From: Henningerozyma blattae CBS 6284
Taxonomy: Eukaryota > Ascomycota > Saccharomycetes > Saccharomycetales > Saccharomycetaceae
Assembly (NCBI RefSeq): GCF_000315915.1
Contig: NC_020191.1
Location: forward strand, 922,392 to 986,391
Length of the DNA stretch: 64,000 nucleotides
Direction: 5' to 3'
Under the pieces are notes generated by a model, which searched no databases, had not been told where the DNA came from, and saw nothing but the letters and a program-made list of their open reading frames with translations. Positions 42,956-55,552 of this stretch are shown piece by piece. How positions within the stretch are numbered: position 1 is the stretch's first letter; each line of letters starts with the position of its first letter. Made by a program: the position numbers and the translations under genes.

Positions 42956-44368
42956 CTTAATTAGTTAGTTTATCTGGTAGAAGATTAATTTGAAATTTTT
43001 TTTTCTTAAACAATGCTTAAAGAAGCGAATACTGATGAGATGTATTCCTTATTTCTATAAACGACTTGAAAATCTAGGCCTGTCTACTTATTGATATTAT
43101 TCCTATTCTATATTTTTTATTTTTTTTCATTTTAAAATTTGGTGGCTTCGATACCCAGCCGGCGCATTTTTACAAAACAAAAATTGAACTGAATTACAAA
43201 AAAATAATGACTTACCCGGCTTCAAATTTAGCCGCTATTATATTGTTATAGAAAACAAATAATAACTTTTTACTATATTAAATCTGAATTCTTATTTTTT
43301 TATATTTGGTATTCCTATTTTTATATATTTAACGTTAGAAATGCGAAGGAAGATTTATTGAAAAAAATGACAAAGCTAGTTAAATATTTTATTAATATTT
43401 TTTTTTTAAAAATCCAATCAATTATAAGAAGCTACTCTATTTTTCGTTAATACTGATTCAACCTTACCTTTTGAAATATTGATTATACGAGACTACTAAC
43501 TACTATTAAAAGTATTGTTCTTTGACTTATTCTGACAAAATGTCTGCAACTTTATGCCTAGTTGTCTCAAATCTGAAAAGTAAGTAAACTGCTACGTAGA
43601 AATCTTCAATATAGTTGTGATTTATTCTATATAACAAAAAAATAATAAAATGAAATAAAAAAAGAAGTTTCTAAGTCAAGTTATATGTCTTATTTTTCTG
43701 TTTATTGTACTGAATATCCGAGGTTTTGCATAATAGCTACCACTTTTGGCTATCTTTTAAAATACCTTCTGGAATACCAAATAACCAGAAAAAAGTATTG
43801 AAAATAAAAGTTGGTTACAGAAGGATATCATAAAAAGTTAATTTTAGTAATTAAGCTCTATAAATATCAGTAAAATCTAAAATAACTTCTATGACTTTTA
43901 GATGATACTAACATGACAATTTTTGAAGAATCTGAAATATTGATACATAGTAAAATAGTTAATTAAAAAGAGGAACATTTCAACAGGCACTAAATTAAAT
44001 ATTAAAGTTATTTTGCAATGTTGAATATTTCTGTATCTTTTAAAGGTAATTTTCTATTTCTTTCAGAAATATTCTTATAGTTCCTTATATTTTTGTTTTT
44101 CAGTAATTTCATCACTTTAGCCGAAAACAGTATCCTTACCCGAATTCATTTTTCACAAGAATTTATCCTTGTTCGATTATCAATATGTTTAAACCTATAG
44201 AAATCAAATAGTAAAAAAGGGTTATAAAATACAGTGTCCCTATTAAAGATACAGAACTTACATAACAGTAAATTAATCAAATCATATTTATATTGGGTTA
44301 AAAAGTTTTGGAAGAAGTAAACTTATCCTATACAAGCAAAAATAATATAATAATCAAGAGTAGGCGAA
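42956..44368. other. Intergenic RSC9-COX14 with intron-like signals
   Basis: 1.4 kb. MSC1, which lies here in S. cerevisiae, is not found. Reb1 site at 43212-43219. On the plus strand ATG at 43540 opens 13 codons, followed by GTAAGT at 43580 and a perfect TACTAAC at 43906, an intron-like layout with no clear downstream exon. A hairpin pairs 43765-43771 with 43818-43824 and 43782-43787 with 43812-43817. A second Reb1-like TTACCCGA is near 44136-44143, before COX14. Confidence 0.45.
43212..43219 (-). promoter_or_regulatory. Reb1-type site upstream of RSC9
   Basis: TTACCCGG core, about 257 bases upstream of the RSC9 start codon. Confidence 0.6.
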
Positions 44369-44575
44369 ATGGCTCGTTATGCATGGTACACAAGAGTTAC
44401 TGATGCTTTACATCGTTTAACTATCCTAACATTATTAGGTGGTGGTTTATATCTAGGTAGTGGTGTAGTATACACTATTTATATGAATACTAAATCTTTA
44501 AATGACAAACAATCAAAGCTAATAAGTAATGCGCCTGGTGCTGGAGATGATCAAGATAAAAAACAAGAACAATAA
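44369..44575 (+). CDS. COX14: Cytochrome c oxidase assembly protein Cox14
   Basis: A small inner-membrane protein that stabilises newly made Cox1 with Mss51 and Coa3, coupling COX1 translation to assembly. Length is 68 residues (70 in S. cerevisiae). The N-terminus [20 protein letters not shown] is nearly that of S. cerevisiae Cox14. One transmembrane span lies at about residues 18-38 with [14 protein letters not shown]. The tail is polar. A Puf3-type element follows in the 3' UTR. Confidence 0.95.
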
Positions 44576-45064
44576 ATATTCTAAACTGGTAGGCTTTCTG
44601 ATCACCTATTCTATCTACATATTTTTACTAATGGCCACATGTACATACTACAATAAGAAAAAAAAAGGGGAATTTACAAGATCTTCTTCGTTTCTTATTT
44701 TTTACTAATTAATGGTGATATTTTTCTTTTCTTTTTTTTATTTGTGAATATTAGCATTATCTTATAAAATATATATTCTCATGATAGTTTTTTATATTTT
44801 AATATAATTGATAATTAGTTAAGCAAATTTTTGAAATACTATGGTAACTTAATCTACCAAAATGCACTTTGGATAGTTGCTTCAGGGTGTAAGGGTGTAT
44901 TGAATTTGAAAAATTTATAGCAATGATTGTTAACTACGGCTTAAAGGATTTATTTAATATTGAAGAATATTACATTTAAATGTTAACTTAGAAAGAAGTT
45001 TAAATATATTATTACCTTTTTTCATATTTTTTAGAAATTCTACGATAAGAAGCACGCTGTTCAA
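44576..45064. other. Intergenic COX14 to U2AF35-like gene
   Basis: COX14 3' region and the promoter of the next gene. Only the Puf3-type element stands out. Confidence 0.5.
44640..44647 (+). promoter_or_regulatory. Puf3-type element in COX14 3' UTR
   Basis: TGTACATA, a good match to the Puf3 motif, 65 bases after the COX14 stop codon and on the coding strand. COX14 encodes a mitochondrial protein, the class Puf3 controls. Confidence 0.65.
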
Positions 45065-45706
45065 ATGTTACCTCCTCCACCACCACCTCCACCATCAGAG
45101 ACTCCTATAGAATCGTTAACAACAACAAATATTAGTTCAAACGTCAAATCTCATACCAAATCAAATGGTAATACCATAGCCAATGCTATAACACCTTTAA
45201 ATAAAGGTTTAAAAGAGGACAATAATGATCATTGCTTTTTTTTTTATGAAATAGGTGCTTGCCGTTACAATTCTAAATGTATCAAAAAGCATATTAGACC
45301 AACCAGATCCAATTGCATAGTATTATTAAATTTAATAGACTTAAAACTGAACACGGAAGTTACAAACTATGCATTCGATTCAATTTATCAAGATATTTTT
45401 CTGGAAGCTATGAAGTTTGGTAAAATTTTATCACTAGAGATTTCTGTAAATGAAAATGATTGTTTAAACGGTAATGTGTATATCAAATATTTGAATGATT
45501 CCATTGCTAGGGATGCAATGAATAACTTCAATACAAGGTGGTATGATGAAAGGCCCATATATTGTGATCTTGTAAACTACAACGAAGGTACATGCCGCAG
45601 ATATGATAACGGGAATTGTGCTAGAGGCCCTGAATGTACCTTATTACATAGAAGATGGCCTTCAAGCAGATTAAAATGGGACTTAGAGTCTAGTCAGAAA
45701 GATTAG
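45065..45706 (+). CDS. U2AF small subunit (U2AF35-like) splicing factor
   Basis: U2AF35 recognises the AG at 3' splice sites and helps U2 snRNP recruitment together with the large subunit (Mud2 in yeast). Length is 213 residues. The domain order is that of the family: CCCH zinc finger 1 (C57-x8-C66-x5-C72-x3-H76, with IGACR), a U2AF-homology RRM at about 83-170 ending in GNVYIKYLNDSIARDAM and NTRWYDERPIYCDL, and zinc finger 2 (C177-x7-C185-x5-C191-x3-H195). Spacing of all eight zinc ligands equals human U2AF1. The N-terminus has an added run of eight prolines and an Asn/Ser/Thr-rich stretch; the C-terminal RS domain is missing. S. cerevisiae is known to lack this subunit. It follows COX14 on the same strand. 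Confidence 0.93.
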   Translation: MLPPPPPPPPSETPIESLTTTNISSNVKSHTKSNGNTIANAITPLNKGLKEDNNDHCFFFYEIGACRYNSKCIKKHIRPTRSNCIVLLNLIDLKLNTEVTNYAFDSIYQDIFLEAMKFGKILSLEISVNENDCLNGNVYIKYLNDSIARDAMNNFNTRWYDERPIYCDLVNYNEGTCRRYDNGNCARGPECTLLHRRWPSSRLKWDLESSQKD

Positions 45707-46552: not shown

Positions 46553-47479
46553 ATGGTTAACTATAACGAATGGATGTCTCAATTAAACGGGGACGTTAAT
46601 GTTGGCCACTTATCCATTCCAGGTACACATAACAGTGCTGCTAGTCATACTGCCATGCCTTCGGTCAAATGTCAAGATAAAAGTATTACCGAGCAATTGA
46701 ATAACGGTGTTAGATTCTTTGATATTAGATTGGGGAAATTCTTTTTCAAGGATAAAGATACTGATGGTGACGGCCACGACGATTATAATTCCAATGACCT
46801 ACAAGTAATCCATGGCAAATTCCCAGTTAAGATGCCCTTCCCATTAGAATTTTCAAAAGTATTGGAGGAATTTTATTCCTTTTTAGATGAAAACCCAAAG
46901 GAATCTTGCATTGTTTCATTGAAACAAGAAGGTTCAAATTCTTGGGATAATGATAATGATGAATTTGGTAATTTCATTTGGAATAACTATATCTCCAAAA
47001 ATGAAGACAAATGGTACTTAAATAATCAATTACCAAATTTGAATGACTGTAGAGGTAAGATCATCTTGTTCCGTAGATTCGGTATTAAGGACGAAAACAA
47101 AGCCAACAATTATGGGATCGAGGCTTCATACTGGTCTTATAATACCACTGATGAAGACCGTGGCTCATTCAGAGTTCAAGATTTCTGTGAAATTAATGAT
47201 AGAGCTGCTATCGATCAAAAAGCCGATCATGTTAAACAATTCATGACTACCGCCACTGAGTATAATGGAACACAAAGTTCTAATCCTAAGTTATTTCTAA
47301 ATTTCTGCTCAGGTGCTAACTTTTTTGATCACCAATGTTGGCCAGAAGAAATTGCCAATAGAATAGAAACATGTGGCATTCAAGACAATGTGAAACGTGG
47401 TTGTGGTATTGTTATTGTCGACTATGCTGGCAAGAATGATTGGAGTATTGTGAAGAGAATGGTTGATTCTAACTTTTAA
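46553..47479 (+). CDS. Bacterial-type phosphatidylinositol phospholipase C-like protein
   Basis: Single-domain PI-PLC (X-domain fold) of the kind found in Bacillus and Listeria and in a few fungi; the reaction would be cleavage of phosphatidylinositol or GPI anchors to diacylglycerol. Length is 308 residues. Catalytic histidines are H26 in SIPGTHNSA and H87 in QVIHGKF, with the substrate-loop Arg in VRFFDIRLG. There is no Y or C2 domain as in eukaryotic Plc1, and no signal peptide, so a cytosolic location is likely. An insert at about residues 66-82 (KDKDTDGDGHDD) resembles a calcium-binding loop. S. cerevisiae lacks such a gene, while Candida albicans has similar ones (PLC2, PLC3). Horizontal transfer into yeasts is possible. 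Base composition is like its neighbours. Confidence 0.88.
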   Translation: MVNYNEWMSQLNGDVNVGHLSIPGTHNSAASHTAMPSVKCQDKSITEQLNNGVRFFDIRLGKFFFKDKDTDGDGHDDYNSNDLQVIHGKFPVKMPFPLEFSKVLEEFYSFLDENPKESCIVSLKQEGSNSWDNDNDEFGNFIWNNYISKNEDKWYLNNQLPNLNDCRGKIILFRRFGIKDENKANNYGIEASYWSYNTTDEDRGSFRVQDFCEINDRAAIDQKADHVKQFMTTATEYNGTQSSNPKLFLNFCSGANFFDHQCWPEEIANRIETCGIQDNVKRGCGIVIVDYAGKNDWSIVKRMVDSNF

Positions 47480-47729: not shown

Positions 47730-49859
47730 TTAACTCTTATGACTAGCACCATATTGTTTACATTTAAGGTCAGCGTATTTTGACATACATTTTAATGTCT
47801 TAGACAAAATATGGTCACTATCATCACTTGGAATAAAATCTTCAGCAATATCCTTATCGCTGTACATCTTCACGATGTAATCTAATATACCTCTGATAGT
47901 CATTACTTTAGATATAGCATCTGCCTCGCTATAAGTAAATATTATATAATCCTCAAATTTCTTTGTTTTTGGATCTTGTCCAATTACATCCCAAAATGCA
48001 ATTGAATTAGGTGACATTACATTTACATCTTCACATGTATAACCTTCATGTTTCCATCCCAGTACATCTGTATCAAAATCCATAGATGGCACAACCAATT
48101 CTTGATGATATATACCATTATGTTCAATTAATAGATTTAACATCGGCCTATAGAACCTCCTGCCACATCCACAGTTGTCAAGATGCAATTTTGCAAAACT
48201 TAGCCACATTTGCTTACCTGATATTCGAGCAATAACACTAGGTAGTGGAACAAGTTGAGTGCCACCACGAATGCCATTATAATTATTTGCCTCACTTAAA
48301 CCTAAGGTACGTTTTTCAAATACTCTTTCACATAAACCGTCATTCAATGAACATTTTAATATTTCAAGTGGACTATATCCATATACAAAATGAATAGTCC
48401 CCCGAGATAAATCTGATATAACATCCTCTTTGGAAAAAAATGGAGACCAATTTTTTTCAACACGATTACTACCTGGAAGTACAAATTGAACTAATCGGTC
48501 AGTGGTTCTATGTGGTAAAAATGCATACATTTGCCTACCCCAAGAGTCTTGCATATTAAATACAACGACTGGTTCTTGTGTTTGACCAGTTTTCCTTAAT
48601 ATAATTCTTGGATCCTCTGCACCAGTAAATTGTCCTCCAGAATTGAAGGGAAATCTATATATAGTAGGATAAGTAACGAAATAATTCTCTAACAGAGAAT
48701 CTCGTCTCCTAGTTTCATCTAAGAAATCATTAGCCTGTCTGGCTAAACAGCTCTCATAAGAACTTGGAGTATCAACTAAATATTCACAGGTGGCGGACAC
48801 TCCAAATTCTTTGTCTATTTTTTGTATTTCTTCCTCAATATTATCCGGTAGGCTTATATCTAATTTTGGAATACGTTTTCCAATTAATTCATTCCAATCT
48901 TTGTCAAATGCTTGAGCCCTAATTATTGAAACATCAGGCCTTAACCTATCACCGTTACCAGCATACATTATACGAGTTACAGTGATATAGCAATGGTGCT
49001 CTTCTAACCAAATGCTTGATCCACCAAATCTTGTCCAGCTTTTTTTTATTATTTCTTCATTAGTCATATCCTTTTCTTCTTCCTCTCCTACTTTTTTAGC
49101 CCATTCATCATCTTTCAATAGGGTTTCCTTTCTAACTGAAATTAAATCATCTTCCAAAATCTTCCTTTCCTTTGAATATTGAATTTCTGACGAATGTTCT
49201 AAATCTTCACAGTCAACATTTGAGCTATAATCATTATTTTGTGATAATTCATATTCATTGACAGGTATTAATTTCCCATTTTCATCTATCAAATCCTTTG
49301 ACGTCTTTTTCTTTTTTTTCGAGGTGATAGAGTTCAAATTTAAATTTGTTACAAAACCCTTAATTTTAAATCTTTTATATTTCTGGTTTTGAATTTCTGG
49401 GGTAATTGGCATTTTGTCAGTCGATCTATAATTCAAATAATTTATTAAATCTAAATTTACCAAATCCTTTTTAAATTGTACTTCGTTAGTCTCTTTCCAG
49501 AGTGGCAAGTATGTGTAATAATATGTCTTTGAAAAATTGATAGATTTATAGTTAACAGAATACATGAATATTAATAAACTGAAAATTAAAGTTATAAGAG
49601 TAATTAATTTGAAGTTTCTATTTTTTCTAAATTTTTTCACACATACTATTAAATGAAGTCTCGTTCTTCGTAATACAGTGATAATATTGTGCAAAATCTT
49701 CATTATTTTATGTGTTGACTGATGATTATCGATATTTTGATAGGTTTCGAACTCTGAATATTGTGGCGGAGATGACGAGTCTATGTGTGAAACATTTGCA
49801 TCTGCTGAAACATTTTGATCGATTAGTGGGATACTTAAAGAAATAATTTTATCTGACAT
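47730..49859 (-). CDS. Beta-mannosyltransferase family protein (BMT/GT91-type)
   Basis: The family, first described in Candida albicans (BMT1-9), adds beta-1,2-mannose to cell-wall mannan or glycolipids in the Golgi. Length is 709 residues. It is a type II membrane protein: a cytosolic tail of about 90 residues, one transmembrane span near 92-112 (ITLITLIFSLLIFMY), then a lumenal domain. Family-type motifs present include RFGGSSIWLEEH, GGQFTGAEDPRI, FMLPHR-like FLPHRTTD, RGGTQLVPLP and DNCGCGRRFYRPML. All conserved blocks look intact. A second, strongly changed family member lies 7.5 kb away on the other strand, with an MNN1-type gene between. S. cerevisiae has no such genes; Candida glabrata does. 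Confidence 0.9.
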   Translation of the reverse strand: MSDKIISLSIPLIDQNVSADANVSHIDSSSPPQYSEFETYQNIDNHQSTHKIMKILHNIITVLRRTRLHLIVCVKKFRKNRNFKLITLITLIFSLLIFMYSVNYKSINFSKTYYYTYLPLWKETNEVQFKKDLVNLDLINYLNYRSTDKMPITPEIQNQKYKRFKIKGFVTNLNLNSITSKKKKKTSKDLIDENGKLIPVNEYELSQNNDYSSNVDCEDLEHSSEIQYSKERKILEDDLISVRKETLLKDDEWAKKVGEEEEKDMTNEEIIKKSWTRFGGSSIWLEEHHCYITVTRIMYAGNGDRLRPDVSIIRAQAFDKDWNELIGKRIPKLDISLPDNIEEEIQKIDKEFGVSATCEYLVDTPSSYESCLARQANDFLDETRRRDSLLENYFVTYPTIYRFPFNSGGQFTGAEDPRIILRKTGQTQEPVVVFNMQDSWGRQMYAFLPHRTTDRLVQFVLPGSNRVEKNWSPFFSKEDVISDLSRGTIHFVYGYSPLEILKCSLNDGLCERVFEKRTLGLSEANNYNGIRGGTQLVPLPSVIARISGKQMWLSFAKLHLDNCGCGRRFYRPMLNLLIEHNGIYHQELVVPSMDFDTDVLGWKHEGYTCEDVNVMSPNSIAFWDVIGQDPKTKKFEDYIIFTYSEADAISKVMTIRGILDYIVKMYSDKDIAEDFIPSDDSDHILSKTLKCMSKYADLKCKQYGASHKS

Positions 49860-53296: not shown

Positions 53297-55552
53297 TTAA
53301 TATATCTCACCTTTTATTGGCATTGATCCTGCATCTTCTATTTTGAAATAACTCCAAACTTCATTGGTGCTCTTACAAATCTTATATTCTTCACCTTTCA
53401 ATTCTACTAGAGTACCTCTTTCAATCATTTCTTGATTACTAAACTCTCTTAAAATCTTTTCATAACGAGCACACCAAATATAGCCTTGGCAAGCCTTATT
53501 TTGTCTACCCCATGCATCAATAGCACTCCAAGATATTACTGCAAACTTGGGGTCAATTGGTCCATCATAAACTTCTTGTAATTCTTCTTCAGATTTTGCT
53601 AAATTTTTTGGCCATTCAATTTTATCATTTTTCCAATCATCTTGCACACAGCCATCTTTTTTACAAATAGAAGCACCACCATTTGTCCATAACATTTTGT
53701 GATCCACATCTAAATGAACTATTTGTGCAGAACACACTTCAGCCTTTATTTCTGGATATGGTACTTTCTTTTCTTGATAAATACCAAAAGTCCCTGCATT
53801 TATTGGATGGAATGCGTAAGGATGACCTGATGCTAAAAATCCTAACCAAAAAAATTCCTTATCACCATAACTACATTTTTCTATAGGTAGCATATGTAAA
53901 GTCATCCCCATTATTAGAGGGATAATATGACTTGTCTTATCAATAGCATAGAGACCTGATTCCATTTGATGAAGTAAATTATCAGCAAAAAATTGTTTAT
54001 AAATTTTTTCGTTTGGATCCAAATATTGCTCACATTCATTTAAAACGTGTTCTTCATCAATATATTTATGATTATCAAAATATTTACTTTCTGGTAACAT
54101 TGGATGTACAGACTCCAAAAGAGCATTACATGTTCTTGGTAAATAATGCTCTAGCATTCTATCCCTAAAGAAAATAGTGCCAGTTTCGTTATATTCCTTT
54201 GTATTAAAATAATGGTTTAAATCAACATAAGAAATTGCATCAGCATCTAAGAAAATATATTCTTCAAACAAATTAAAAATTGAAGCTAACCATTTACTTT
54301 TCCATCCAGTAAAATTATCAAAGAACTCAGGATCAATAATATTAGTAACATCTACAAATATAATTTCTTGTTTTGTAAAAACATCTTTCATTACATTACC
54401 TTTTTTATCTTTAATTTGTACTTCATCTGATTGTGCAGCGAACAGTATTTTTTCCATACTATTTTTGGAAAGATCATTCTTTGTAATAATAATTTGAATT
54501 GGTAAAGTATTTTGTCTATATCTTAAAGCCATAATTAATTTTAACGCCCATTTCAAATGTTTATCACCAAAGCTTAATATAACACCACGATGAGCCACGT
54601 TACCTGAAATTCTATTCCAATTCATCCAAAATGATTTTGTCTTATCATATTGAAAATAAGAATATTTAGCCTTTAATCTTGTTTCATCAGTTAAAATGGG
54701 TATTTGACCTTTTGGTAACAATTCTCCACCATATCTAATTCTTGGTATAATATCTGAAGCGTTTGACTCTTCAAAATATTTTATATAGGGGAACATCCTA
54801 TGTTCTAAATCCCATTGATTATATTCTTTATAAGTGTCTTTTAAAAGAGTACTTCTAACGTTTAAATCTCTTTTTTTAGAAGAAGACGATAAATCTAAAA
54901 CATCTTTCATTGTAGATCCTGTCGTATCTTCAAATATCTTACTAATATCAACATTATCATTTTGAATAAAGCATCTATCATAAATTCTTAATCTTTGCAA
55001 AGCTAATTTTACGTCATTTTTTTTACGGTGCATTCTTATTAATTCTTCATCACCTAAGATGGAACCTAGTTTTTCTTCTTTTAAGTCAATATGAATATCG
55101 TCTATATCAAATGTTAATTTATGATAATCATTCGACCATTTATTGTTCATTGAGTATAATTGACGGAAATAAAAGCTGCATCTATCTTGTAAATTTAAAT
55201 CATGAAATTCTAGCATAGAAAATTTTTTCATTGGATTCCAACTTGTATTTTTTTTAAAATTAACCATTTTATCATAATCTGGTATGAAATCTAAAGGTGA
55301 GTAATTACCCTCTTGTAAAGGTCTAATATTAATAGCATCCAAGGCATGTGAAAGGCCTTTATTTAAATTACCTGATCTAAAATTAGTCTTTATAGAATCT
55401 TTGACATAAAAGATATTATGACTATTCGTATTACTATTATTTATTATTCCATTAAGTAGATATAAAAAAAAGGAAATTGAAATTAAAGTTGTTATAAACA
55501 ATATTCTTGTTTTATTAACATAACGAGAGTTTGGTGAAATTTGGTTTAACAT
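53297..55552 (-). CDS. MNN1-type alpha-1,3-mannosyltransferase (GT71)
   Basis: Golgi enzyme that adds terminal alpha-1,3-mannose to N- and O-linked glycans. Length is 751 residues (Mnn1 of S. cerevisiae has 762). It is a type II membrane protein with a short tail and a span at about residues 16-34 (ILFITTLISISFFLYLLNG), then a stem and the catalytic domain. Visible motifs are RGVILSFGDKHLKWALKLI, the metal-binding DAD in YIFLDADAISY near residue 431, and FHPINAGTFG. Several paired Cys (CNALL, CEQYL, CSYGD, CSAQ, CKKDGC, CQGYIWC) occur as in Mnn1. Which of MNN1, MNT2 or MNT3 it corresponds to is not certain; length and architecture favour MNN1. Its neighbours also concern cell-wall mannan. Confidence 0.9.
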   Translation of the reverse strand: MLNQISPNSRYVNKTRILFITTLISISFFLYLLNGIINNSNTNSHNIFYVKDSIKTNFRSGNLNKGLSHALDAINIRPLQEGNYSPLDFIPDYDKMVNFKKNTSWNPMKKFSMLEFHDLNLQDRCSFYFRQLYSMNNKWSNDYHKLTFDIDDIHIDLKEEKLGSILGDEELIRMHRKKNDVKLALQRLRIYDRCFIQNDNVDISKIFEDTTGSTMKDVLDLSSSSKKRDLNVRSTLLKDTYKEYNQWDLEHRMFPYIKYFEESNASDIIPRIRYGGELLPKGQIPILTDETRLKAKYSYFQYDKTKSFWMNWNRISGNVAHRGVILSFGDKHLKWALKLIMALRYRQNTLPIQIIITKNDLSKNSMEKILFAAQSDEVQIKDKKGNVMKDVFTKQEIIFVDVTNIIDPEFFDNFTGWKSKWLASIFNLFEEYIFLDADAISYVDLNHYFNTKEYNETGTIFFRDRMLEHYLPRTCNALLESVHPMLPESKYFDNHKYIDEEHVLNECEQYLDPNEKIYKQFFADNLLHQMESGLYAIDKTSHIIPLIMGMTLHMLPIEKCSYGDKEFFWLGFLASGHPYAFHPINAGTFGIYQEKKVPYPEIKAEVCSAQIVHLDVDHKMLWTNGGASICKKDGCVQDDWKNDKIEWPKNLAKSEEELQEVYDGPIDPKFAVISWSAIDAWGRQNKACQGYIWCARYEKILREFSNQEMIERGTLVELKGEEYKICKSTNEVWSYFKIEDAGSMPIKGEIY

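Follow-up and report, generated by a model that had tools for sequence, protein, structure and literature searches.

The window analysed here, a stretch of 64,000 nucleotides (64 kb) from Henningerozyma blattae CBS 6284, carries at positions 45065–45706 of the forward strand a gene which, by family, fold and zinc ligands, is assigned as a U2AF small-subunit orthologue (U2AF1/U2AF35/U2AF23). Its frame consists of 213 codons plus a stop, open without interruption and intron-less as seen; since the longest open reading frames in base shuffles of the whole window (n = 20) reached 81–129 codons, a frame of this length is not due to chance. The gene was the single match at E 0.01 in the H. blattae genome (14,041,469 bases in 10 contigs). 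Neither GTATGT nor TACTAAC was found in 44300–45706, where only these consensus forms were sought, so that nothing points to a concealed 5′ exon or intron, a possibility rejected on this basis.

The gene is flanked by a COX14 homologue (44369–44575) and by a PI-PLC-X protein (46553–47479, + strand). The latter has 308 residues, and the solved structures that it matches best are those of phosphatidylinositol phospholipases C (E 1.9e-17), which we take to be bacterial. Further along, a beta-mannosyltransferase (BMT) family protein (47730–49859, − strand) lies near a Mannosyl_trans3 protein (53297–55552, − strand), both genes being at most about 17 kb from the contig end.

The protein and its domains

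Residues 51–211 of the encoded protein (hereafter the window protein) matched chains of S. pombe U2AF23 with an E value of 5.5e-32 (phmmer; 4yh8, 7c08). The Pfam models RRM_1 and zf-CCCH were also matched, both below their curated cut-offs, and a Pfam search at those cut-offs would therefore miss the gene. An AlphaFold model built from 29 aligned sequences had a mean pLDDT of 77.1, falling below 50 across residues 19–53, and matched crystal structures of U2AF23 with RNA; in Foldseek, S. pombe U2AF structures took ranks 1–18, the best with E 7.7e-16. The likeness to U2AF23/U2AF35 in sequence and fold spans both zinc fingers and the U2AF-homology motif (UHM). Because a single-sequence protein search returned only the window protein and homologue P0002, a three-sequence profile was used, and 2795 homologues were recovered, the named ones among the best 120 listed including U2AF small subunits. 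No relatives of the window protein were found in viral contigs. These 120 proteins, the window protein counted in, served as the comparison set, which is uneven, with many filamentous fungi and with the Lachancea protein P0053 as the sole Saccharomycetaceae name recognised besides the window's own.

Zinc finger 1 occupies residues 57–76 (45233–45292; C57-x8-C66-x5-C72-x3-H76), the codon of its first Cys being free of an intron, and zinc finger 2 residues 177–195 (45593–45649; C177-x7-C185-x5-C191-x3-H195), with all eight zinc ligands kept. Between them, residues 84–170 (45314–45574) form the UHM, an RRM delimited by secondary structure and by a match to 1jmt_A. RXF-type motifs contribute to the tryptophan pocket of UHMs. 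Such a motif is present as R158-W159-Y160 (45536–45544), placed by alignment columns and identical to that of S. pombe; among the best 120 of the 2795 homologues, these residues are found in 120, 86 and 119 proteins, respectively. Within the UHM, Q109 stands in place of S. pombe E78, and Q is shared with P0002, whereas 116 of the 118 others of the best 120 have E. The protein stops 18 residues past the second finger and has no RS domain at its C-terminus, a feature shared with S. pombe U2AF23 (PMC8624252, used here and below in excerpt). Ahead of the first Cys there are 56 residues, whereas P0004 of S. pombe has 17 there and P0053 of Lachancea has 9. Homologue P0077 has Ser where the first Cys is expected, which could be explained by retention of an intron whose final AG falls at this codon.

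Overall, the window protein shares with S. pombe U2AF23 (4yh8, 7c06–7c08) the CCCH-UHM-CCCH architecture, the zinc ligands and residues F20, R28, R150 and R159, and it differs from it by an N-terminal extension and shorter linkers, with 33% identity in the best Foldseek alignment. Human U2AF35 (U2AF1) has the same two-finger layout and a UHM fold in common with the window protein (1jmt), which lacks the RS tail of the human protein. The first-pass annotation is upheld in most structural respects: a U2AF35-type gene is supported by the frame, by the match to U2AF23 and by the fold, and the two CCCH fingers with family spacing around a UHM, the missing RS tail and the added poly-proline N-terminus are all real.

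Retention of U2AF1 and its probable large-subunit partner

The nearest relatives of this species (T. blattae in the literature) in a 20-species study are, we believe, T. phaffii and V. polyspora. U2AF1 of T. blattae is not new, having been reported by Hooks et al. in 2014 (PMC4202332, likewise used in excerpt), where the gene is present with its domains kept. According to that source, U2AF1 is present in V. polyspora, T. phaffii and T. blattae, and was lost in Saccharomyces sensu stricto, C. glabrata, K. lactis, Kazachstania and Naumovozyma. The absence of a U2AF35 homologue from S. cerevisiae, also stated in the first-pass annotation, is confirmed in PMC8624252. That annotation had further taken the gene for one kept by this lineage and lost by its relatives, and had named its finding in close relatives as evidence to the contrary. 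This view does not stand: the presence of the gene in T. phaffii and V. polyspora has been on record since 2014 (PMC4202332), largely supplying that evidence, and the profile search recovered the Lachancea small-subunit homologue P0053. The same source describes U2AF1 of T. blattae and T. phaffii as lacking the intron that is usual at the first Cys codon, and no intron is seen there in the window gene; it also gives insertions of 105 amino acids for T. blattae and 60 for T. phaffii, and the window protein, with 213 residues in all and 56 ahead of the first Cys, cannot accommodate one of 105.

A homologue of Mud2/U2AF65 was found in the H. blattae genome by a search with the U2AF65 UHM (L032:1468–3267, − strand; TBLA_0C01410). 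Its residues 201–232 matched the U2AF59 chain of the U2AF23 complex (7c06_B, E 5.1e-06) and correspond to a tryptophan ligand motif, like the U2AF59 peptide co-crystallised with U2AF23, and its C-terminal UHM, residues 493–589, matched the UHM of U2AF65 (E 1.2e-05). In S. cerevisiae Mud2, the UHM alone is recognisable (PMC8624252). The co-occurrence of the small subunit with a Mud2 bearing the ligand tryptophan, raised in the first-pass annotation, was thus observed in this genome, and pairing of the U2AF1 UHM with the Mud2 ligand motif is well supported by the sequences of both predicted partners. The database entry of TBLA_0C01410 has 582 residues, compared to 599 for the open frame from the first ATG. 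A search with this homologue, in which 7983 candidates were scored, returned only its own protein.

Residues at the RNA-contact positions

In S. pombe U2AF23, according to excerpts of PMC7505975, −2A is held by F20, C27 and R28, −3U by H29, C33 and S34, −1G by C149, R159, C163, N164 and F165, and +1G by R150 and F165, whereas E12 and K15 touch the RNA backbone; replacement of H29 by alanine significantly reduces RNA binding. The window protein keeps E12, F20, C27, R28, C33, C149, R150, R159 and C163. Its changes with respect to S. pombe comprise K15N (residue N54), H29Y, S34I, R35K, N164T and F165L in the contact region, as well as Q151R. The −3U reader positions, Y68 (S. pombe H29) and I73 (S34), fall in 45266–45283, and those reading −1G and +1G, T192 (N164) and L193 (F165), in 45638–45643.

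Among the best 120 of the 2795 homologues, the window protein and P0002 are the only ones to deviate in the H29, N164 and F165 columns (two of 120 in each). In the S34 column six of the 120 deviate, including P0004, whose Tyr is that of the S34Y mutant chain 7c08; in the K15 column, 93 of the 120 have K and 20 have R, against N in the window protein. The residue after R150 is R in the window protein, and Q, L, K and H in 85, 31, 2 and 1 of the best 120 of 2795, respectively. This residue, Q151 in S. pombe, was equated, on our assumption, with Q157 of human U2AF1, which together with S34 (human numbering) is a cancer hot spot; the two positions are occupied by Arg and Ile, respectively, in the window protein. 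At the Q157-equivalent (45599–45601), P0002 has His, and P0053 from Lachancea and P0077 have Lys. Judged from these alignments, basic residues at a hot spot of human cancer occur naturally in yeasts.

The first-pass annotation described the gene as such; the altered RNA-reading surface predicted here is what the present analysis adds to a known gene, and no description of it for H. blattae U2AF1 was found in the literature searched. Whether the RNA contacts had been a special target of change was assessed on the columns conserved, at thresholds of 95% and 90%, in the 118 proteins other than the window protein and P0002, omitting zinc ligands and scoring linker positions deleted in the window protein as deviations. 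In columns conserved in at least 95%, the window protein deviates in 27 of 59, made up of 5 of 9 contact columns and 22 of the 50 others (Fisher p 0.39). For P0002 the counts are 7 of 9 and 22 of 50 (p 0.065), whereas Lachancea P0053 deviates in 9 of 59 in total, comprising 1 of the 9 contact columns and 8 of the 50 others. With the threshold lowered to 90%, the figures are 5 of 10 contact and 35 of 66 other columns for the window protein (p 0.70), and 8 of 10 and 34 of 66 for P0002 (p 0.087). A special targeting of the contacts was rejected on these values: since its contact columns change like other conserved columns, the protein is divergent throughout, with the contacts sharing in the divergence.

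Branch-to-AG distances and the probable role of U2AF1

The pattern TTTACTAACAA occurs at 71 sites in the genome, compared to 49 for the reversed control pattern. Reading of 50 of the 71 sites provided 32 candidate introns whose junction is spanned by a reading frame, of which 22 were kept and 10 dropped. Four were dropped because their 5′ splice site was not GTATGT (L036, L041, L048 and L064, with branch-to-AG distances of 21, 45, 87 and 77), and six with GTATGT were dropped by eye as doubtful (L037, L049, L055, L069, L076 and L081; 140, 106, 26, 15, 43 and 115). The choice of introns was based partly on recognised proteins, and some first exons are uncertain, e.g. in L043 and L062. The 22 predicted introns kept have distances of 35–79 nt between the branch A and the terminal G, with a median of 57.5 nt that is the same with the six GTATGT rows restored (28 introns) and with all 32. 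All 22 end in YAG, under a script that accepted T, C or A, and not G, before AG; AAG is the ending of L036, L037, L055 and L064, which are among the ten dropped. Two of the predicted introns lie in similar genes about 2 kb apart (L061 and L062), which presumably encode proteins resembling eEF1B-gamma.

Average distances are 13 nt in S. pombe and 36 nt in S. cerevisiae (PMC8624252), and a median above 30 has been given by Hooks et al. (PMC4202332), with which the long distances predicted here agree in direction. A median of 57.5 nt in predicted introns appears to fit poorly with a tight U2AF bridge. The first-pass annotation had suggested relating the presence of U2AF1 to branch-to-AG distance, but H. 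blattae does not follow a simple rule, the distance being long despite the presence of U2AF1.

The best explanation, to which we assign a probability of about 0.87, is that the gene is a U2AF small-subunit orthologue kept by descent, whose product would pair with the Mud2 homologue and set its fingers on the terminal AG. Worded as a pathway, U2AF1 would have descended vertically in the H. blattae branch of the Saccharomycetaceae, the partner of its UHM would most likely be the tryptophan ligand motif in the Mud2/U2AF65 homologue, the two zinc fingers would be placed on the intron-terminal AG in early spliceosome assembly, and the protein would act in 3′ splice site choice. This explanation is opposed by the changes at RNA contacts and at the E78 position, by the long distances, and by Pfam scores below the cut-offs. 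AG reading by H. blattae U2AF1 is plausible and may be weakened or altered; because the sequence is markedly divergent, contacts included, and the predicted introns have a long stretch between branch point and AG, the protein probably contributes to AG choice less than in S. pombe, or in a different way.

How far such an alteration has gone can be viewed in two ways. It may tentatively be proposed that U2AF1 of Henningerozyma/Tetrapisispora has been retuned, keeping its partner and zinc scaffold while changes at the readers of −3 and −1/+1 relax or alter 3′ splice site preference, which would make it a living intermediate on the way to loss. Somewhat less probable, and on balance doubtful, is that the protein still pairs with Mud2 with its AG reading mostly lost, persisting as a scaffold or nearing the loss seen in other clades. 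The substitutions at the H29, S34, N164 and F165 positions, three of them confined, among the best 120 homologues, to this protein and P0002, speak for this, as do the replacement of the backbone-contacting K15 by N, the excess of deviating conserved columns over Lachancea P0053 and the long predicted distances; however, the frame is intact, F20, C27, R28, R150, R159 and the zinc ligands are retained, contact columns are no more changed than other conserved ones, and position 29 is still aromatic, a Tyr that could stack.

Improbable, by comparison, is a role of the proline-rich N-terminus as a new contact surface, e.g. for the WW domains of Prp40. The window protein does begin with eight prolines at residues 3–10 (45071–45094, encoded by a run of CCN triplets), within a 56-residue N-terminus that is mostly disordered in the AlphaFold model; Msl5 is bound by Prp40 via WW domains (PMC8624252), and proline-rich sequences are the expected targets of the PRPF40A WW domains (PMC11079029, in excerpt). 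But a run of at least five Pro within the first 80 residues is found in the window protein only, one of the best 120 of 2795 homologues, P0002, the closest relative among the matches listed, does not have it, and slippage can produce a CCN triplet run. The earlier suggestion that the run replaces the RS domain is unsupported, the S. pombe gene being essential without an RS domain (PMC8624252). That the gene encodes a different CCCH-RRM-CCCH protein, such as a U2AF35-related factor, is hardly credible: the sub-threshold Pfam scores would allow it, but S. pombe U2AF23 is the best match in both sequence and fold, the match in the genome is single, and the T. blattae gene counts as U2AF1 in Hooks et al. 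(PMC4202332).

As a gene, H. blattae U2AF1 is a known retention of an ancient splicing factor. If the proposed retuning is true, the protein would stand between an AG-reading U2AF1 and the situation in Saccharomyces, from which the subunit has gone completely; long branch-to-AG distances would go with this intermediate state, and both positions that are cancer hot spots in humans would be affected. The altered contacts could make H. blattae a natural case for U2AF1 function when the AG is distant from the branch point, and the species could also inform how a widely conserved factor turns dispensable.
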